Source of the DNA: Actinomycetes bacterium
GTDB lineage: Bacteria; Actinomycetota; Coriobacteriia; Anaerosomatales; Anaerosomataceae
DNA: 59,856 nucleotides
Assembly: GCA_021372825.1 (NCBI GenBank)
Contig: JAJFTR010000095.1
Span: forward strand, 1-59,856
Direction of reading: 5' to 3'
Shown: in pieces, positions 50,172 through 59,855 of the stretch
How positions within the stretch are numbered: position 1 is the first letter of the stretch
Layout of the letters: every line of letters starts with the position of its first letter
Program-made: the position numbers and the translations under genes
Notes under the pieces: generated by a model
What the model saw: the letters and a program-made list of their open reading frames with translations, nothing else
Databases searched by the model: none
What the model was told of the DNA's origin: nothing

Positions 50172-50786
50172 CTACTTTTGGATGCCCTGTCCGACCGTGA
50201 GAACGACCTGCTGGTCGCCGTAGAGCATCACCACAGAATCGTCGCCGATAGACAGGACCTTCCACGGCGTGCCGGGGATCGAGTCGCCTTCACTGAGTGT
50301 GTATGATTTCTGGTCCCACATCATCAACGCTGTGGGAGACCCGCCTACCGTGCTGATCGAGAGCAAGTACAGCGTATCAGCCGCGTACTCTGACACATCC
50401 GGCGCCGACGTGCTGTCAGGCGATGCAGTCGGCGTGGCGCTCTCCTCCAGCGGTTTGATAAGGGGGTCGAATATGTCGCGGAAGGTGAATACCTCATCGA
50501 GAGGCACCTCGGGCGCGGGCTGCGCCGCTTCAGCGGTCGTCGTCGCCTGCTGCGCGCTCGACGCCGGCTTTGGCGCAGGAGCACGGACTTCCGTCTCCGG
50601 CGCCGACGGGAAGAGCACGGGGATCACAAACGCCGCGAGCAGACCCACGACGACCGCGAGGACCAGCAGGCCTCCGATGATCATGGCCGTCCTGTTGCCG
50701 CTCGTCGGGAAGAATCCCTGCTTGCCCGCGGAAGCGGCGGATGCAGGGGCGCCCGTTCCGGTACTCTGGGTGATCTCGTCAGTCAC
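50172..50786 (-). CDS. PilP/GspC-like pilus assembly protein (diverged)
   Basis: A 204-residue bitopic protein at the place of pilP in a pilM-N-O-P order. It has a short cytoplasmic region, a membrane helix (about 34-55), a Pro/Ala/Thr-rich spacer (about 60-135), then a small beta domain (about 138-204) with YLLSISTVGGSPTALMM and YTLSEGDSIPG, like the homology region of PilP and GspC. No lipobox is present, unlike PilP of Gram-negative bacteria. The GTG has AGGAGG six bases upstream. The call rests on position and layout. Confidence 0.62.
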   Translation of the reverse strand: MTDEITQSTGTGAPASAASAGKQGFFPTSGNRTAMIIGGLLVLAVVVGLLAAFVIPVLFPSAPETEVRAPAPKPASSAQQATTTAEAAQPAPEVPLDEVFTFRDIFDPLIKPLEESATPTASPDSTSAPDVSEYAADTLYLLSISTVGGSPTALMMWDQKSYTLSEGDSIPGTPWKVLSIGDDSVVMLYGDQQVVLTVGQGIQK

Positions 50787-50805: not shown

Positions 50806-51450
50806 TCACTGAGACGGCGTCGCACTGGCGGGCGGCGAAGCCGTCGCCGGAGCCGACGCAGACGACGGGCGCGAACTTTGCACGATCGACATCGTGTAGA
50901 CCTCGATCTCGATGACCCCTTTGATCACGGCTCCTTCGGTCTCCGTCGGGGCGACGTAGGCGTAGTCGCACGAGAGCACTCGCACGCCTCGCGTCAGCTT
51001 GTCGATCTTGCGAACGTACTCGACGTGGTCGGCCCAGTCTCCCGTGACCACGATCGAGATAGGGATCCTCGTGTAGCCCAGGCTCTTCCCTGCCGCATCA
51101 ACGGCCGGCACGGGCTCGTTTGGTTGAATCTGCGTGAAGGTCAGACCGGCCGCGTTGGCGACATCCTGAAGATCGACGATCAGGGTGGGAAGCTCCGGCC
51201 CCTCGGGCACCTGGTTCGCGATGTGGAGGAGCTCAACCTGGTTCTCGGCGGCCCGAGCCTTGGCGCTGGTGCGCCGATCAAGGACAGCCTGCTGTTGTGC
51301 GATCTGGCTTTCCGTGTCAGTGATCTGGGCGCTGATCTGGGACGCCTTGTCGAACTGCGGCATGATCAGCAGGAACGTGGCGGCCACTGCGATCACAACG
51401 ATCACGACGACGGCGATGATCAATTGGCTCTGTGTGGAAAGTCGGTTCAT
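50806..51450 (-). CDS. pilO: Type IV pilus inner-membrane protein PilO
   Basis: Bitopic protein that pairs with PilN to form the alignment complex. The 214-residue protein has an N-terminal membrane helix (about 9-30), a coiled coil (about 33-70) and a ferredoxin-like domain (to about 190), ending in a Ser/Ala/Pro-rich tail. It follows pilN within 15 bases. Confidence 0.85.
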   Translation of the reverse strand: MNRLSTQSQLIIAVVVIVVIAVAATFLLIMPQFDKASQISAQITDTESQIAQQQAVLDRRTSAKARAAENQVELLHIANQVPEGPELPTLIVDLQDVANAAGLTFTQIQPNEPVPAVDAAGKSLGYTRIPISIVVTGDWADHVEYVRKIDKLTRGVRVLSCDYAYVAPTETEGAVIKGVIEIEVYTMSIVQSSRPSSASAPATASPPASATPSQ

Positions 51451-51465
51451 CTCGTCACCTGGTGT

Positions 51466-52065
51466 CTAGGGCGATGGTGTAGTGGTGGAGGCAGTAGAAG
51501 CGGGTACCTCGACTCCTGCGGTGATGCTGAACTGCAGAGCGGGCTGCTCCTCCACCAACGTGGCAACGGAGTTGGTGAGCCAGACGTCATACAGCTGGTC
51601 GAGGTCTGCGAGGCGCACGAGCAGCTTCGCTATCGTCTTGTGCCCGTAGTCCGGGGAGTCTTCCGGATCAACGGCATAGCCGTCGAGCTGAGCCCCCTCC
51701 GTTTCCCCTACATTGAGTGTGATCAGCCACATGTCCGCCGGCATCACGAGGGATACCTCATCAAGCAACCTGCTCCAGTCGCGACGAGCGTCAAGGGCCA
51801 TAGACGCGACACTGCGACGACGCTGCAGCTCACTTTCCTGCAGCTCGAAGACCTGCAGCGCCTCGGCCTTCTGAGTCGTCGTCGCGAGGAGCTGGGTCTT
51901 CTGGTCGAGAACGGTCTGCTTGCTACTGACGTTCATCGATGCGACGACGTACACGCCGGCGAGAACGATCACCACGCCGATGAACGCAAAGGCCACATAG
52001 ACCATTCGCCGCTCGGCTCGTCGCCTCTCCAAGATCTCGGGAGGCAGCAGGTTGACACGCATCAT
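51466..52065 (-). CDS. pilN: Type IV pilus inner-membrane protein PilN
   Basis: Bitopic partner of PilO and of cytoplasmic PilM. The 199-residue protein starts with MMRVNLLPPEI; the NLLPxE sequence is the motif that inserts into PilM. A membrane helix (about 21-42), a coiled coil and a ferredoxin-like domain follow. I chose the ATG at 52065, which overlaps the pilM stop in ATGA and has GGGAGG nine bases upstream. Confidence 0.9.
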   Translation of the reverse strand: MMRVNLLPPEILERRRAERRMVYVAFAFIGVVIVLAGVYVVASMNVSSKQTVLDQKTQLLATTTQKAEALQVFELQESELQRRRSVASMALDARRDWSRLLDEVSLVMPADMWLITLNVGETEGAQLDGYAVDPEDSPDYGHKTIAKLLVRLADLDQLYDVWLTNSVATLVEEQPALQFSITAGVEVPASTASTTTPSP

Positions 52066-53189
52066 GCGCCTGTACCTCCCATCGCAAGACCGATGGCGGT
52101 CACGCACCCCATGCGATCGGCTGTGACCACCGGCTGAAGGTTCGCGGGCACCTGCACACGGGTAAGCGGATCGCCAAGTACAACATGCGCCTGAAGGCCC
52201 TTTTCAAGATAGCCAGCCAGGTTCTTCAGCTGAGCACCACTGCCGGTGAGGATGATGCGTTGAATCGTACGCGCCTGCGACGTCTGAGTGAGGTAGTAGT
52301 CGAGCGAACGCCTGATCTCGGCGATGAACTTGTTCACCTCTCGCTCCAGGGCCTCCTGCACGACCTGGGCGGTCTGCTCGTCGACATCGATCGGTAACTG
52401 GCTGCTCGCCGCCTCGACATCGGGTAGGCCAACCTTGACCTTCAAGCTCTCCGCTTCGTCAAAGGTGAGATTGAGCACGTTCGCGATAGCGTGGGTGAAC
52501 TGGTTTCCCGCAAGTGCCGAGACGCGATTGAAGCGCGGGATGCCACGCTCCACCACGGTGATGTTGGTGATACCCGAGGACACATGGATGACGCCTGTGG
52601 CACTTGACGCGTCGCCCTCCTCAGGGAAGAACCCCGCCTCGCCACCCATGAGCGCGCGCACAACGGCAAACGAGGACACATCGATCTCGTTGAGCCTCAG
52701 GCCCGCCCCTTCGACCGCCTGCACAGCGGCCGCGATCATCTCCCTGTGAGCCGCGACGAGGAGCACTTCCATCATGTGTTCGTCAGAAGACGTCATGTAG
52801 TCGCCGATGATCTGGAAGTCCAGGATCGACTCCTCGACGGCCATCGGGATGTAGTCCTGGGCCTGATACTGGATCGCGCCCTCAAGCTCCGCGCGCTCCA
52901 TGAAGGGCAGGTCGATCAGGCGCACGACGACCTTTTGGTTGGACACCCCGATGCTGACGTCCTTGCCCTTGACGCCCGACCGACGCCACAATTCCTTGAT
53001 GGAGGCCGAGACACTCTCGGGTGCAACGATCTCGCCCTCGACGACGGCACCCATCGGGACGTCCACCATAGCGTACGCACTCAACACGAAATTGGCACCG
53101 GCCGGCCGCATCTGGGCGACCCGGATGTGATCGGTGCCGATATCGAGTCCTATTGCTGCGGAACTGCTACCGAAGGAGAGGGGACCCAA
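52062..53189 (-). CDS. pilM: Type IV pilus assembly ATPase-like protein PilM
   Basis: Cytoplasmic actin-like (FtsA-fold) protein that docks on PilN and links to the assembly motor. The 375-residue protein has the phosphate-1 region GLDIGTDHIRVAQ (14-26), DLPFMERAELEGAI and a C-terminal ILTGSGAQLKNLAGYL adenosine region. The start is a TTG at 53189 with AGGAGG six bases upstream. It follows a 183-base gap after the pilX-like gene that contains a TTGACA element. Confidence 0.93.
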   Translation of the reverse strand: MGPLSFGSSSAAIGLDIGTDHIRVAQMRPAGANFVLSAYAMVDVPMGAVVEGEIVAPESVSASIKELWRRSGVKGKDVSIGVSNQKVVVRLIDLPFMERAELEGAIQYQAQDYIPMAVEESILDFQIIGDYMTSSDEHMMEVLLVAAHREMIAAAVQAVEGAGLRLNEIDVSSFAVVRALMGGEAGFFPEEGDASSATGVIHVSSGITNITVVERGIPRFNRVSALAGNQFTHAIANVLNLTFDEAESLKVKVGLPDVEAASSQLPIDVDEQTAQVVQEALEREVNKFIAEIRRSLDYYLTQTSQARTIQRIILTGSGAQLKNLAGYLEKGLQAHVVLGDPLTRVQVPANLQPVVTADRMGCVTAIGLAMGGTGA

Positions 53190-53372: not shown

Positions 53373-54968
53373 CTACAGACGGGTCCACAATCCCGGCATC
53401 AGGAGGCCCTGGTCCACACCCGGAAGCGACTGCGGCAAGTAGGTCGGGAGCAGCGGGTTGGTCACAAGACACATGTTCGGGTGGTCCGAGTCTATACGGC
53501 CGGCGATGACTGATCCGCGCATCAATACGTTGTGCTGGAAGTTCACCACGCCCTCCGCGTAGAAGGCTCCCGCGATGGTCGGCGCCGCTTGGCGGGCGGT
53601 CTCGAGGTCCGAGTTGCCCCCAAGCGGGTTGTTGTCAGCGGTTGCGATCACCAGGTCCGCAGGAGTCGCCAGCCCCAAGGCCCAACCGTTCTGCTCGCCC
53701 ACCGTGTTGCTGTACACGGACCCGCCGTACGGGCGAACCATGCCGTTCACGTAGATGGGCCCGTTGCAGACGATAGTCCCGTTGCCCACGTACGTCATGT
53801 CCTCGTCGAAGTAGACGGGGCCGTCCACAAAGACCGTGCCTTCGATGTACAGCCGGTTGTTCTCGTCGTCGTAGGCGAAGTCATCGTGGCTGTTCGAAAG
53901 GGTGTAGTGACCGTCTCCTGGGAAAGACGTCCCTGTCGTGGTGAGCGACCCCCACGAACCGAACGTGCGGTTGCCGATGTGCAGCGGCGTCGGCCCCTGC
54001 CCTTTTGCGGAGATCGTGCCGTCCGCCGCGCCGATGAACTTGTAGCAGGCGTTGCGCTCGTCACTCGGCCTCGAATCGGCATAGGCCCGGGTCCATGCTC
54101 CTGAACTCGGCGGCTGCATGGTGGCGTATGTGTTCGGGTCCCCGCCGACCGACTCCAGATTGGTCACGGTCGACCTGTCGGGCGGACCCATGATATTGTC
54201 GATCGACTCCGATTGCGCCTTGGTCGCCCACTGTTCCAGCTGCTCCTGAGAGATCGCCGGCAGTGTGATGTCGGGCACCGAACGTGTGGCCGTGCTGATG
54301 TAGACGCCACCTGCGTTGCCCTTGTTGTTGTTGGCAGGCACATCGCCGTCGCAGAAGACCCGGATGAACATGTCCGGGGCGCCCAGCTGCCCGCTGGAAG
54401 ACACACTTATACTGCCGCCTTTCACGAAGAGCGGCCCCTCGAGCACGGCCATGTTCGCAGCGATCGCCAGGTTACCCTTCATGTAGAACGGTCCGACGAT
54501 GTTACTGGTGCCCCGAAGACCCCCGGAACCGCTGATGAGTGTCTGATCACCTGTGCCGGCGAAGTTCATCTTCCACAGGTTCATGTAGTAGAACTGCTGG
54601 GAGACAGTCTCCTGTGAACCGTCTTTGCCCGTCGCAACGGCCGTCAGGCGGTATTCTCCAAAGCCCGGGTCGAGCTCTTCAGCTGTCACGGTGTATGTCC
54701 CGTCCGGCGTCGCTCCCACCAAAGGGAACGTGCCGTCCGAAAGCGCCGTCTCATCAAAGGCGGAAAGAACGCGCTCGAGACCGGAATCCGCCGCACGGAA
54801 AGCCTTGGACTCCTCCTCGACTCTTCGCGTCTCGTGCAGGGACTGACTGGCGACAGCATAGGAGCCCACCGCCAGGACCGTCATCACGGCGATGACGCCC
54901 ATGACCGTGATGAGCGCGACACCGTCGTCTCCGCGGACGCGGCGTGCAAGACTGGACAGCATCGTCAT
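53373..54968 (-). CDS. PilX-like pilus-associated protein with large C-terminal domain
   Basis: A 531-residue protein that begins like a pilin (GDDG, then VALITVMGVIAVMTVLAVG) but lacks the usual Glu at +5, as in PilX/GspK proteins. After the helix it has a Glu/Arg-rich stretch and a large extracellular part (about 130-530) rich in Gly, Asn, Thr and Ser. That part has repeated phrases such as VFVDGPVYFDEDM and IVCNGPIYVNGM, which suggest a beta-solenoid (inference). I chose ATG 54968 with GGAG four bases upstream; GTG 54971 and ATG 54962 are alternatives. It may cap or initiate the pilus or act as an adhesin. Confidence 0.75.
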   Translation of the reverse strand: MTMLSSLARRVRGDDGVALITVMGVIAVMTVLAVGSYAVASQSLHETRRVEEESKAFRAADSGLERVLSAFDETALSDGTFPLVGATPDGTYTVTAEELDPGFGEYRLTAVATGKDGSQETVSQQFYYMNLWKMNFAGTGDQTLISGSGGLRGTSNIVGPFYMKGNLAIAANMAVLEGPLFVKGGSISVSSSGQLGAPDMFIRVFCDGDVPANNNKGNAGGVYISTATRSVPDITLPAISQEQLEQWATKAQSESIDNIMGPPDRSTVTNLESVGGDPNTYATMQPPSSGAWTRAYADSRPSDERNACYKFIGAADGTISAKGQGPTPLHIGNRTFGSWGSLTTTGTSFPGDGHYTLSNSHDDFAYDDENNRLYIEGTVFVDGPVYFDEDMTYVGNGTIVCNGPIYVNGMVRPYGGSVYSNTVGEQNGWALGLATPADLVIATADNNPLGGNSDLETARQAAPTIAGAFYAEGVVNFQHNVLMRGSVIAGRIDSDHPNMCLVTNPLLPTYLPQSLPGVDQGLLMPGLWTRL

Positions 54969-54977
54969 CACACTCCG

Positions 54978-55565
54978 TCACTGATTACGGAACAGGATCG
55001 TCCGCGAGTCCGAGAACTGATGGCCGTCGTACATCGTCACGACGGTCACGACGACCTTCGCCGCCTGCGAGGGAACGTCTCCCAGATTCGTGATCTGCGC
55101 TCCTGCCTTGTCGTAGAAGATGAAAAGGGGTGTGCCCGTTTGCATGTTGTAGTTGCTCTCGGACCAAGCATAGGTAGAAGGAGCCCGCTCGTATGTCCCA
55201 TCCTGACGAACCTCAGCGTTGCTCATCAACAGCCGGTGATCGCTCGTCGCGGTGAACTCCCACACCTCGCGGTTGTCGTCGTTGTCAGCATCCGTCTCCA
55301 CTTCGAGGTGATAGGCGGTCACTCCTGGGTAGTCAGAGTCGATCCGGTACTGCTGTTGCAGGACTTTTTCCATCTGCTGCAAAGGTGCGGCCACCTCTCG
55401 TGCCATCCACGCCTGCCGGTCGGAGAGGCGACTGTAGGAGTGCGATACTTGGAACCCGCCGTATGTGACACCCAGGACGATGCCGAGCAATCCAAGAGCC
55501 GCGAGAAGCTCTGAGAGCGTGAAACCGCGGTCTTCCTTAAGAGAAGCAAATGGACGCTTCATCAC
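54978..55565 (-). CDS. Minor pseudopilin, PilW-like
   Basis: A 195-residue prepilin. The signal ends EDRG, with cleavage before FTLSELLAALGLLGIVLG; Glu at +5 is present. The globular part has YRIDSDYPGVTAYHLEVETD and IFYDKAGAQITNLGD, typical of PilW/GspJ-like pseudopilins. The GTG at 55565 overlaps the stop of the next upstream gene in GTGA; an ATG follows directly. Confidence 0.82.
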   Translation of the reverse strand: MMKRPFASLKEDRGFTLSELLAALGLLGIVLGVTYGGFQVSHSYSRLSDRQAWMAREVAAPLQQMEKVLQQQYRIDSDYPGVTAYHLEVETDADNDDNREVWEFTATSDHRLLMSNAEVRQDGTYERAPSTYAWSESNYNMQTGTPLFIFYDKAGAQITNLGDVPSQAAKVVVTVVTMYDGHQFSDSRTILFRNQ

Positions 55566-57034
55566 CAGATCACCGCCATCGGTGAGGCGTTCGAAGGGCC
55601 GACGATGTTCGAGCGCAGTGTCACGGGCGTCGGAGACTCGAGGACGCCGTTGTCGGTCCCGATGGGTGTCACCGTCACCTCGAACTGGTAGTAGTAGTCA
55701 TCCGTCTTCTTGAACGACTCCGTGAACGTGTTCATGTTCACAGGGAGGGTCTGGTGCCACGTGAGGTTCGTCGAAGTCGTCCCCCGATAGACGCTATAGG
55801 TGAAAGACGAGTACGGGAACTGCGGCGTCGAACAGGTGAGATTCACGGTGCGGTTCGATCCGCTGGTGGTGCTGGTGCCGCTCAGCGCGGGCCTGCTTAT
55901 CCAGGAAATGGGGTGCACATACCAGTCCGACATGTTGTTCCGCGGGCTGTGCGCCTGCATCTGCAGCCGGTAGCGCGAGAACGGGGTGGTCGTCACCTCG
56001 GCTGACAGGCCCTTGAAGGTGTTGAGTTGCGAATCCAACGCCCATGTGTCACTCGTGGCTGCCTGCTTGTAGAAGTACACCATGTAGTGGTCGGCTGGCG
56101 TGGTGCCGTCCATCACCTCGGCCCAGGAGACCTGGCTCTTCGTCGCCGTCACGGGAACCGCACTCGCGGTCGTGGGTACAGCGGGCGCATGGTTGTCCAC
56201 CAGGAAGTGCCGCACTGTGTACTTGCTCACGCCCCCGGAATCGAGCACATAGGCGCTCAGCGTCCGGTAGCCGTCCACGATCACGTACTCGCCGAGCTCA
56301 TTCGTCTGACGCGTGTCCCAGATGAACGACGGAGTGGTGAACGTCTGTGCGTCCACCGATGTCCATGAAGCCACGTTACCGAGAGTGTCTTTCAACAGGA
56401 ACTGGTCGTCGCACCACAGCGCTACTGAACTCACGGCTCGGCCCTCGGCGGCCTGCGCGGTGGCTCCCACGGTGAGCGCACCGCCGGAATGGTTGCTCTC
56501 CCATACGACGCTGCCTTCGGCGGGTGTCGAGTCCGTGAAGGATATCCGAGGATCGGTCTCAGGACTGCTTACCGCAGACGTGAGGAACCTGTCCCGGTCG
56601 CGGATGAGGACCTCGGTCACGTAGGAGATGGGGGAGCCGCTCGCGCCGCGCGTCACACTCACGGTGAGGCGCAAACGCTTGAGCGTCGGCGTCTCCGACG
56701 ACGTCATCGTTGTCGGTATCGAGACTGCGGGCCGTATCACGATCACGAACTCGCCCACGGTCTGGGTCTCCTCGGCAGAGAGCTCACCGCCGTTCTCGAC
56801 AAGCGCCACATCCTCGAAAGGCATGGCGCTCACTCGCTCGACGTAGGCGTTGATGGCGTTCGTCATGACGGCGTGCTGCTTGGCCGCCGTGCTCATCTGC
56901 GTGGTGGTGCCGAGCAGCCCCAGAATAGCCGTGAGCACCACGAAGAAGATGACCGCCGAGATCACGATCTCGATCATCGTCAGGCCATCGTCGCTTCGAA
57001 AGCGCCTCGCGACAGCCGCTCGCATCGTGCCCAC
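55562..57034 (-). CDS. Minor pilin, PilV-like, with large fibronectin/Ig-like C terminus
   Basis: A 490-residue prepilin. The signal ends SDDG, with cleavage before LTMIEIVISAVIFFVVLTA and Glu at +5. A pseudopilin-like domain to about 170 is followed by two or three beta-sandwich-like modules (one about 245-360 with a fibronectin III pattern, another about 380-470). This length is far above the usual 150-200 residues for minor pilins. I chose the GTG at 57034 because GGAGG lies eight bases upstream; the ATG three codons later is an alternative. An adhesive tip role is an inference. Confidence 0.78.
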   Translation of the reverse strand: MGTMRAAVARRFRSDDGLTMIEIVISAVIFFVVLTAILGLLGTTTQMSTAAKQHAVMTNAINAYVERVSAMPFEDVALVENGGELSAEETQTVGEFVIVIRPAVSIPTTMTSSETPTLKRLRLTVSVTRGASGSPISYVTEVLIRDRDRFLTSAVSSPETDPRISFTDSTPAEGSVVWESNHSGGALTVGATAQAAEGRAVSSVALWCDDQFLLKDTLGNVASWTSVDAQTFTTPSFIWDTRQTNELGEYVIVDGYRTLSAYVLDSGGVSKYTVRHFLVDNHAPAVPTTASAVPVTATKSQVSWAEVMDGTTPADHYMVYFYKQAATSDTWALDSQLNTFKGLSAEVTTTPFSRYRLQMQAHSPRNNMSDWYVHPISWISRPALSGTSTTSGSNRTVNLTCSTPQFPYSSFTYSVYRGTTSTNLTWHQTLPVNMNTFTESFKKTDDYYYQFEVTVTPIGTDNGVLESPTPVTLRSNIVGPSNASPMAVIW

Positions 57035-57162: not shown

Positions 57163-57996
57163 TTACCCTGTGAGCCCCACGAGAGCAAGGTACCACGCCA
57201 GAGCCTGCTCGCCCCACATGACAGTGAAAAACGTTCCCATCGCAAGGAAAGGTCCGAATGGGATGCGGCCTGCAAGCCCGCCTTCGACCCTACGTCGCGC
57301 GGCCAGCCCCACGAGCGCGCCGATCACGCTGCCTGCGAAGAGCGCCATCAGCACGTAAGGTCCGATGAACAGGCCGAGCGTGGTCAAGAGCTTGATGTCG
57401 CCCATGCCCATCCCTTGCTTCCCGCGAAGGGCGCCGTACGCGGCAGAGATGCCGAGGGTGATACCGGCGCCCAGAAGAGCGCCGAGCGCCGCCTGCGCGA
57501 CCGGACCGGTCGCCAGGTACGGGTTTCGCAGTCCCACGAGCGGCAGGACCGGGACAGCGGCCACCACCGACAGACCTACGCCGACGACACCGAGCGCCGC
57601 AAGCACGCCCACGAGCGGGTTGGGCAGTCGCATGTGGTCGATGTCGATGGCGCTCAGCACCAAGAGGAGGTAGAAGAGCGCTGCGGCGAAGAGCGCGCGC
57701 CAGGAAAGCCCGAACCTTGTGCCCGCCGCGACGCACACAAGCGCGCTGGTCGCTTCGACGAGAGGATAGCGTGGCGATATCCTCGCCCCGCACGAGCGGC
57801 ACTTCCCGCGGAGCACCAGCCACGAGATCACGGGGATGTTGTCACGCCACCGGATCGGCGCATCGCACACCGGGCAATGCGAACCCGGTGCCGCAAGGGA
57901 CTCGCCGCGCGGCAAGCGCCAAATGACGACGTTGGCAAAGCTGCCGAAGACGAGTCCGAAAACGCCGAGCGTCACGATGAAGAAAGGCTGCGGCAT
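57163..57996 (-). CDS. pilD: Prepilin peptidase PilD
   Basis: Membrane aspartyl protease that cleaves the leader of prepilins and N-methylates the new terminus. The 277-residue protein has the N-terminal domain with a zinc-binding CPVC/CRSC tetrad (41, 44, 66, 69) and the catalytic Asp118 in AIDIDHMRLPN and Asp200 in GMGMGDIKLL. About eight helices are visible. Ribosome site before the ATG is weak. A strong hairpin lies between pilA and this gene. Confidence 0.95.
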   Translation of the reverse strand: MPQPFFIVTLGVFGLVFGSFANVVIWRLPRGESLAAPGSHCPVCDAPIRWRDNIPVISWLVLRGKCRSCGARISPRYPLVEATSALVCVAAGTRFGLSWRALFAAALFYLLLVLSAIDIDHMRLPNPLVGVLAALGVVGVGLSVVAAVPVLPLVGLRNPYLATGPVAQAALGALLGAGITLGISAAYGALRGKQGMGMGDIKLLTTLGLFIGPYVLMALFAGSVIGALVGLAARRRVEGGLAGRIPFGPFLAMGTFFTVMWGEQALAWYLALVGLTG

Positions 57997-58131: not shown

Positions 58132-58515
58132 CTAGTAATGGCCGTGCGCGAGCACACCGCTCACCGGGCACGTGGTGTTGCCCGACGCCAGTGTGTACTG
58201 AAGGTCACCTTCCGGACAAGCCGGGGCTTCCTTGATGTAGCCGTTGGCGCCGAGGAGCGTGGCTGTCGCGCCTGAGCCGGAGGCTCCGAGAACACCGTCG
58301 GTCTGAGCGATGGTGTTGTTCGGGCTGGCGGCCAGGTACTGCTGGACGGCTCCCTCGATGGTGCGCTGGTTCGAGTGGCACGTGCGCTGACGGGCAGTGC
58401 GGGACGCTGCGTTGAAGACAGGGATCGCGATTGCAACAAGGATACCGATAATGAGAACGACGACCATCAGTTCGACAAGCGTGAAGCCTTCGTCTTTCCT
58501 TCGGAACATCCGCAT
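58132..58515 (-). CDS. pilA: Type IV pilin, major subunit candidate
   Basis: A 127-residue prepilin with a 10-residue leader ending KDEG, then FTLVELMVVVLIIGILVAIA, a textbook pilin helix with Glu at +5. The globular part is small, Gly/Ala/Thr-rich, and has three cysteines; a pair in ACPEG and TTCPVSG could form a disulfide loop near the C terminus. The ATG has AGGAGG nine bases upstream, and a GC-rich stem lies upstream of that. The strong terminator after it supports its role as the abundant subunit. Confidence 0.93.
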   Translation of the reverse strand: MRMFRRKDEGFTLVELMVVVLIIGILVAIAIPVFNAASRTARQRTCHSNQRTIEGAVQQYLAASPNNTIAQTDGVLGASGSGATATLLGANGYIKEAPACPEGDLQYTLASGNTTCPVSGVLAHGHY

Positions 58516-58640: not shown

Positions 58641-59855
58641 TCACTTCACCAGCGTGATGACTTGGAACATCGGCATGTAAAGAGCGATGACGATTCCGCC
58701 GACCACAACGGCGAGAACCGCCATCATGAGAGGCTCGATCACAGACGTAAGGCCATCGACCGCGGCACTCACTTCTTCGTCGTAGAAGTCAGCGACCTTG
58801 GAGAGCATCGCATCCAGAGCGCCTGTCTCTTCACCAACAGCGATCATCTGCACCAGCATGTTCGGGAAGACCGGGGATTCGGAGAGCGGTTTCGCGATGG
58901 TCTCACCCTCTTTCACGGCTGACCGAACGCCTTTGACGGCACGGGCGATGACTTCGTTGCCGGCGGTGTCTCCCACGATATCGAGCGCGGATAGAATCGG
59001 AACGCCTGCAGCGACGAGCGTACCGAACGTCCTTGTGAACCGAGCGAGCGAAAGCTTGCTCACAAGAGGTCCCACGATCGGCATCCGAAGCTTGATGCCG
59101 TCCCAGATGTACCGGCCTGAGGTCGTGGCTATCCACGACCTGAACGCGATCACCCCTCCCACGATCACCACAAGTACGATCAGACCCGGCAGACCTCTGG
59201 CTCCATCTGAGACGGCCACCAAGATCTGCGTCGGGAGTGGCAACTCGCCGCCCATGTCAGCGAACATCTTCTGGAAGGTAGGCACAACGAAGATCATCAT
59301 CGCGATGAGGACGACCAATACAAGTCCGCCCATCACGATCGGGTACGTCATGGCCGACTTGATCCGTCCTTTGAGCGCAGCATCGCTTTCGAAGTGGTCG
59401 GCCACACGAGAAAGCACCTCGTCGAGCACGCCGCCGGTCTCCCCGGCGCGCACCATGTTGATGAAGATCGGCGGGAACACCTTGGGGTGTTTGGACATCG
59501 CCTCGGATAGCGACTGACCGGCCTCGACATCCCGCCCGACCTGCAGGATGATCTCGCGGAACTCCTTGCTTTCGGCTTGTCCCGCGAGGATGCTCAGGCA
59601 CTTGGTGAGCGAAAGGCCCGCGTTGATCATCGTCGCGAACTGCCTTGCGAAGATGGTCACCTCTTTCATCTTCACGGTCGTGCCGAACTGTATCTTGTTG
59701 AGCGCCGCCAGACGATCCTCGTTGAGGTCGAGGATGATGTAGCCCATCTGCCGCAGCTTCGCGGCGACCGCGTCGCGGCTCTCCCCCTCGAGCCTGCCGT
59801 TCGTGACCTTACCGGTCTTGTCTCGAACGCTGTACTTGAACGTCGTCGTCGCCAT
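58641..59855 (-). CDS. pilC: Type IV pilus platform protein PilC
   Basis: Polytopic inner-membrane platform (GspF family) that couples the motor ATPases to pilin insertion. The 404-residue protein has a short N-terminal region (TFKYSVRDKTGKV), two type II secretion F domains (about 68-195 and 272-400), with ARQFATMINAGLSL in the first and ARFTRTFGTLVAAGVPIL in the second, and three membrane segments. The gene is complete, with its ATG at 59855, one base inside the window edge. The motor ATPases (PilB, PilT) are expected just beyond. Confidence 0.96.
   Translation of the reverse strand: MATTTFKYSVRDKTGKVTNGRLEGESRDAVAAKLRQMGYIILDLNEDRLAALNKIQFGTTVKMKEVTIFARQFATMINAGLSLTKCLSILAGQAESKEFREIILQVGRDVEAGQSLSEAMSKHPKVFPPIFINMVRAGETGGVLDEVLSRVADHFESDAALKGRIKSAMTYPIVMGGLVLVVLIAMMIFVVPTFQKMFADMGGELPLPTQILVAVSDGARGLPGLIVLVVIVGGVIAFRSWIATTSGRYIWDGIKLRMPIVGPLVSKLSLARFTRTFGTLVAAGVPILSALDIVGDTAGNEVIARAVKGVRSAVKEGETIAKPLSESPVFPNMLVQMIAVGEETGALDAMLSKVADFYDEEVSAAVDGLTSVIEPLMMAVLAVVVGGIVIALYMPMFQVITLVK

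Follow-up and report, generated by a model that had tools for sequence, protein, structure and literature searches.

The window analysed here is one whole contig of 59,856 nucleotides (nt) (JAJFTR010000095.1) from a 1.94-Mb assembly of 105 contigs (GCA_021372825.1), assigned to an Actinomycetes bacterium of the family Anaerosomataceae, class Coriobacteriia. On its minus strand, three consecutive genes of a type IVa pilus (T4aP) operon, here named V, W and X, probably encode I-, J- and K-type minor pilins of a monoderm pilus, which would prime and cap the filament and display ligand-binding modules. V (55562..57034, PilV/GspI-like, GTG start) encodes a modular minor pilin of 490 amino acids (aa), W (54978..55565, PilW/GspJ-like) a minor pilin of 195 aa, and X (53373..54968, PilX/GspK/ComZ-like) a minor pilin of 531 aa; the positions and sizes given in an earlier note on this DNA were correct. 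The earlier note had also suggested that the three proteins form a set able to prime the pilus and present a large adhesin at its tip. The first part of that proposal was well supported by gene order, by the lack of glutamate at mature position +5 (Glu5) in X, by the GspK-type N-terminus and by the ComZ fold, while the adhesin was left as one of two options, with DNA binding as the other.

The relationship of X to ComZ, a minor pilin of Thermus thermophilus, was revealed by both fold and sequence profile. The AlphaFold2 model of X, built with seven sequences, reached a predicted local distance difference test score (pLDDT) of 66 and a predicted template modelling score (pTM) of 0.66, and consisted of a pilin helix, four strands at residues 83-130, a beta-solenoid with long loops and a last strand at residues 521-530. 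The solenoid (residues ~138-512, 53433..54557) was predicted to be inserted in the pilin sheet, and its loops 256-300 and 334-362 were of low confidence (pLDDT <50). When the model was searched against PDB with Foldseek, only the two chains of ComZ (6qvi_A and 6qvi_B) were matched at E<=1e-3, the better at E 2e-11. Superposition with VIA-align gave Z 24.0 over 358 residues (root mean square deviation 7.8, 22% identity), followed by ice-binding solenoids (Z 13-14), tapirin domains (Z 9.2-9.4) and Streptococcus sanguinis PilA (Z 8.8); pilin-only structures superposed on X at its start as well as at its last strand. Window X alone found no match among PDB sequences and a profile of relatives was required: a profile built from 52 sequences of X (alignment A4) found ComZ at E 8.4e-9, with the next match at 0.44. 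Since fold and profile agreed, X is on sequence and model grounds assigned as a ComZ-type K subunit, a distant relative of ComZ, and the comparison with ComZ proposed earlier thus gave a match on both counts.

According to the accessible text of the ComZ paper (PMC6561018), the solenoid of ComZ sits between the penultimate and last strands and its pilin part is GspK-like; the solenoid of X was predicted in the same place. The NCBIfam GspK model matched 22 of the 52 X sequences, and its match to window X was far below the curated cut-off. The C-terminal segment (residues ~513-531, ending in GLLMPGLWTRL; 53376..53432) was the most conserved part of X, with a mean identity among the seven sequences of 82% compared with 60% for the solenoid, which can be attributed to its predicted return into the pilin sheet as the last strand. 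The earlier guess of a beta-solenoid was therefore borne out by the model, Foldseek and VIA-align, whereas the description of X as repetitive and Gly/Asn-rich held only in part (G 11.9%, N 5.5%), and direct DNA repeats of at least 15 nt were absent from the gene. Two other labels for X were set aside. DUF7305 was weak on window X (E 0.021), matched 4 of 52 relatives, gave nothing in the search of the genome itself and was also matched below cut-off in the control Thermus composti. Ice binding was suggested by the match to DUF3494-type solenoids (the Z 13-14 above), but ComZ shows a like match without functional insight in the part of PMC6561018 that was accessible.

The prepilin signals of the three proteins pointed to the same arrangement. 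The predicted cleavage sites (slash) were DDG/LTMIE in V and DRG/FTLSE in W, both with Glu5, and DDG/VALITV in X, in which position +5 is Thr, in agreement with the earlier statement that X lacks Glu there. As in a ComZ-type tip pilin, X combines a prepilin signal with a pilin helix lacking Glu5, and as in an HIJK set, the I-, J- and K-like genes lie in one operon and K alone lacks Glu5. Across the loci read, with a site-finding rule blind to position +5, a site was found in 51 of 55 X, 50 of 52 V and all 52 W open reading frames (ORFs), leaving four X and two V without one. Not a single X carried Glu at this position (n=51: Thr 29, Val 9, Ala 6, Leu 3, Phe 2, Ser 1, Ile 1), compared with 49 of 50 V (the other being Gln) and 52 of 52 W. 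The mature lengths at the same loci (smallest, median and largest) were 398, 491 and 530 aa for X, 149, 496 and 662 aa for V, and 173, 181 and 209 aa for W.

V and W look like I- and J-type minor pilins. The N_methyl score of window V was 15.5 bits, below the cut-off of 21.2, and V relatives (n=49) matched the models of ComGE (23), PilV (8) and GspI (3). W relatives (n=39) matched GspH in 23 cases and GspJ in 6, so the J label of W leans mainly on gene order. The fibronectin- and immunoglobulin (Ig)-like modules ascribed to V by the earlier note were only weakly visible in sequence (Pfam fn3, E 0.081, residues 287-344), but the model of V (pLDDT 72.8, pTM 0.41) gave a pilin part followed by three beta-sandwich modules at residues ~158-482 (55589..56563). 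The middle module (residues 281-384) matched many solved FN3 domains at Z ~11, residues 158-384 often matched pairs of FN3 or Ig domains, and the outermost module was less certain, with moderate confidence. V thus has the make-up of a modular pilin, a pilin N-terminus with a predicted C-terminal FN3 fold that is not confined to pili, and folded modules were seen in the models of both V and X, not the unfolded C-termini that would have spoken against the proposal. Identity among seven V sequences fell outward, from 51% in the pilin part and 52% in the first module to 38% in the FN3 module and 33% in the last. Large size alone is not special in a pilin, as modular pilins have been widely described, with more than 1,200 proteins in 264 architectures according to the accessible part of PMC8179133.

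The co-occurrence of the trio with the pilus was evaluated in a class survey of 197 genomes, a phylum survey of 296 genomes and a scan of 61 loci. In the class, pilM was over cut-off in 57 genomes, X was matched in 58 and V in 61, the V tally including other, very large ORFs that its Ig/FN3 part matched weakly. X accompanied pilM in 52 of these 57 genomes and was otherwise seen in 6 of the remaining 140. The five pilM genomes without a match to the X profile A1 were G087, G059, G017, G095 and G103: the first two had a divergent set at the locus (the X of G059 by position only), G017 matched a broader profile, and G095 and G103 had no match even with the broader profile, the contig of G103 being cut at the locus. 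Relatives with pili but without these genes, which the earlier note had regarded as contrary evidence, therefore number at most 2 of 57. V-W-X sat between PilD and PilM in 44 of the 61 loci, which argues that the trio is not a chance grouping; the remaining 17 were 7 loci cut by contig ends, 5 pilM loci without the set, 4 sets elsewhere and 1 orphan pilin, and four of the genomes behind the five set-less loci (G091, G087, G043 and G022) carried the set elsewhere. In the phylum, 137 genomes matched A4, many in the N-terminal pilin part only, and 11 genomes outside the class matched it over nearly full length at E 3e-75 or better. At the 14 phylum loci read, ORF length ranged from 433 to 525 aa for X and from 142 to 535 aa for V, and V was only 149 aa when mature in G001, from another family of the same class. 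By these ranges, X is consistently large, whereas V is large in some genomes only.

On this basis a tip complex is proposed. PilD would cleave V, W and X, their N-terminal helices would bring them together in the membrane, and the three would initiate the filament. X, lacking Glu5 and carrying a bulky ComZ-type solenoid, would sit on top, with V and W connecting it to the pilin fibre. Ligand binding, assigned to PilY1 in diderms, would fall to the X solenoid and the Ig/FN3 arm of V, both protruding from the tip. The proposal draws on the precedents of ComZ and of HIJK sets, described as tip complexes in which the K lacking Glu5 is uppermost (accessible parts of PMC9934059 and PMC10191384), and on the content of the genome: no PilY1 match over cut-off was found in the 105 contigs (best E 0.12), no secretin was found, three PilT-family matches were over cut-off (contigs C67, C56 and C93), and ComEA and ComEC were matched within 1 kb of each other (contig C91). 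Several points weigh against it. While the gene order, the prepilin signals, the homology of X to ComZ, the predicted folds and the co-occurrence with pilM come directly from the analysis, tip position, assembly order and ligand binding are inferred; the confidence of the V and X models is middling; the top PDB match of X depends on which solenoid pilins have solved structures; W relatives favour GspH over GspJ; the V-W-X cluster holds no H-type gene; and at the intact locus of the pilM genome G095 (L082), PilD is directly followed by PilM, with no detectable X or V in the genome.

Within the tip model, two functions of the tip can be considered. For the first, in which the tip binds surfaces such as cells, polymers or minerals and the FN3/Ig arm of V and the solenoid of X serve as adhesins, the case is about evenly balanced. 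The outer modules of V differ between lineages, being FN3/Ig in the window group and repeats of PF13620 (1-4 stretches) elsewhere, while X is more conserved, so that the set could serve to test which part of the tip is structural and which ligand-specific. Tapirin, which binds surfaces, also resembled X in fold, though less closely than ComZ (Z 9.4). FN3 and PF13620 are among the frequent architectures of modular pilins (accessible part of PMC8179133), and appendages resembling pili are described from cultured Anaerosomatales, one strain showing them only in the presence of ferrihydrite (PMC9686372, as far as its text was accessible), although those appendages were not demonstrated there to be type IV pili. 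Moreover, neither a binding site nor a ligand was identified, and FN3/Ig modules can serve merely as spacers.

The second function, in which X acts as a DNA receptor and the tip catches DNA, the pilus retracts and the DNA passes to ComEA and ComEC, appeared rather doubtful. It would follow the proposal for ComZ, which was argued to be a tip pilin and the tip DNA receptor (accessible part of PMC6561018), and would accord with the homology of X to ComZ and with the ComEA, ComEC and PilT-family matches in the genome. ComEC was, however, present in 188 of the 197 class genomes, and its co-occurrence is therefore uninformative for DNA uptake. With residue positions inferred from the profile alignment and a numbering offset of 2 also inferred, the place of ComZ K233 was Lys or Arg in 25 of 44 ungapped X (Arg in the window), but that of K98 was so in only 7 of 52 and is Glu in the window. 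Window X is acidic (net charge -25, isoelectric point 4.5), and the net charge was <=0 in 49 of 52 solenoids; this is weak evidence, because in ComZ itself no positive patch was found, according to the accessible part of PMC6561018. A role of X in receiving DNA in monoderms would carry the Thermus model over to a second type of envelope. As for a role outside the pilus, that the genes serve a pseudopilus for secretion, like that of a type II secretion system (T2SS), is highly improbable, since the GspI- and GspK-like matches that would fit it stand against the missing secretin, the presence of PilM, PilN, PilO and PilT, and an ordinary pilin gene in the operon.

Returning to the three-pilin tip complex, its arrangement could vary between genomes. 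In G013 and G055, a main set (mature X of 512 and 516 aa) was accompanied by a stand-alone set away from the pil machinery (at L096 and L097, respectively; X of 398 aa in each); both set types were recognised by position and length, and PF13620 was identified on the stand-alone V of G013. G043 had a pil operon without the set and a stand-alone V-W-X, likewise away from the pil machinery (L095), and the stand-alone V of G013 and G043 carried 3-4 stretches of PF13620. G294 (L125) had two tandem V-W-X sets before PilM, in which V is short (168 and 142 aa) and X is large (503 and 494 aa). In the sets termed type B, PF13620 repeats were seen on 7 of 10 V scanned (ten chosen, not at random, from 49), and PF13620 matched 8 of the 49; the type-B X (8 sequences, alignment A7) aligned with A1 only in the pilin part (114 columns), and no solved structure was matched at E <0.1. 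We tentatively suggest that V-W-X may be an exchangeable tip cassette: on a constant pilus machine, whole sets differing in their outer modules would be exchanged, moved to other loci or maintained next to each other, giving alternative tips, one of which, in a monoderm phylum, would be capped by a ComZ-type solenoid. Such a swappable and sometimes doubled cassette is possibly new.

Each part of V-W-X has a precedent, so the set widens a known tip design and does not found a new one. ComZ (6qvi; accessible part of PMC6561018) is likewise a pilin with a large beta-solenoid before the last strand, lacks Glu5 (Gly in ComZ, Thr in X) and has a gene adjoining other minor pilins; differently, no secretin was detected in the window genome, one of the two DNA-contact lysines is unmatched in X, and Thermus PilA2 has a small subdomain only, whereas the window partner V is a modular pilin. 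The HIJK tips of T4aP and T2SS (FimU-PilVWX and GspHIJK) share the I-J-K order, with Glu5 in I and J and a bulky K without it, but the cluster in the window lacks an H gene, PilY1 was not found in the genome, the predicted solenoid of X replaces the GspK alpha-domain, and large modules are carried by the I-type V. S. sanguinis PilABC (accessible parts of PMC8179133 and PMC9934059) is also a monoderm three-pilin tip set with large grafted modules and one Glu5-less member, yet that member, PilA, is small and I-like and the modules are vWA and lectin, whereas the Glu5-less member here is a large ComZ-like K. The tapirins of Caldicellulosiruptor (6n2b, 4wa0) resemble X in their beta-helix domain (Z ~9), but the tapirin model matched X weakly at the N-terminus (E 0.028), with a whole-protein score far below cut-off, much weaker than ComZ.

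In a literature search that included the accessible parts of PMC3244431 and PMC6916266, no monoderm T4aP with both a ComZ-type K and a modular I was found, and no ComZ relatives in Actinobacteria turned up, subscription papers lying mostly outside the search. The type IV pili (Tfp) studied in Actinobacteria were, in the accessible part of a 2019 review (PMC6916266), Tfpc, i.e. Tad/Flp. Through the present assignment, a pilus type little studied in these Actinobacteriota-type genomes would be linked with the tip design that is understood best, and the putative ComZ-type cap would be no oddity of Thermus, being associated with pilM in Coriobacteriia and present in certain other families of this phylum.

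The rest of the operon, also on the minus strand, was assigned largely by domain scan. Upstream of V lie PilC, the platform protein (58641..59855), the major pilin of 127 aa (58132..58515) and PilD, the prepilin peptidase (57163..57996); X is followed by PilM (52062..53189), PilN (51466..52062), PilO (50806..51450) and a protein of 204 aa, PilP-like by position (50172..50786), and then by a gene that we take to be aroC. The PilP-like protein was conserved, though no secretin was detected in the genome; it showed a weak likeness to the GspC domain, its best PDB sequence match (E 0.21), and matched no Pfam family above cut-off. A GGAGG motif, judged by eye, was located ~8 nt upstream of the V start at 57034, and the promoter and terminator scans were near chance (1 promoter-like site, 2.0 expected; 7 terminator-like sites, 5.1 expected). 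Whereas the cluster has no H-type gene, one orphan pilin of 116 aa (DDG/FTMLEI) was found on another contig of the window genome, beside unrelated genes at L099, 4121-4471 (G000, C59). Six relatives of X in named records were metagenome-assembled genomes labelled Coriobacteriia, Actinobacteria or Actinomycetes, and the block from V-W-X through PilM, PilN, PilO and PilP to the presumed aroC was common to all six.

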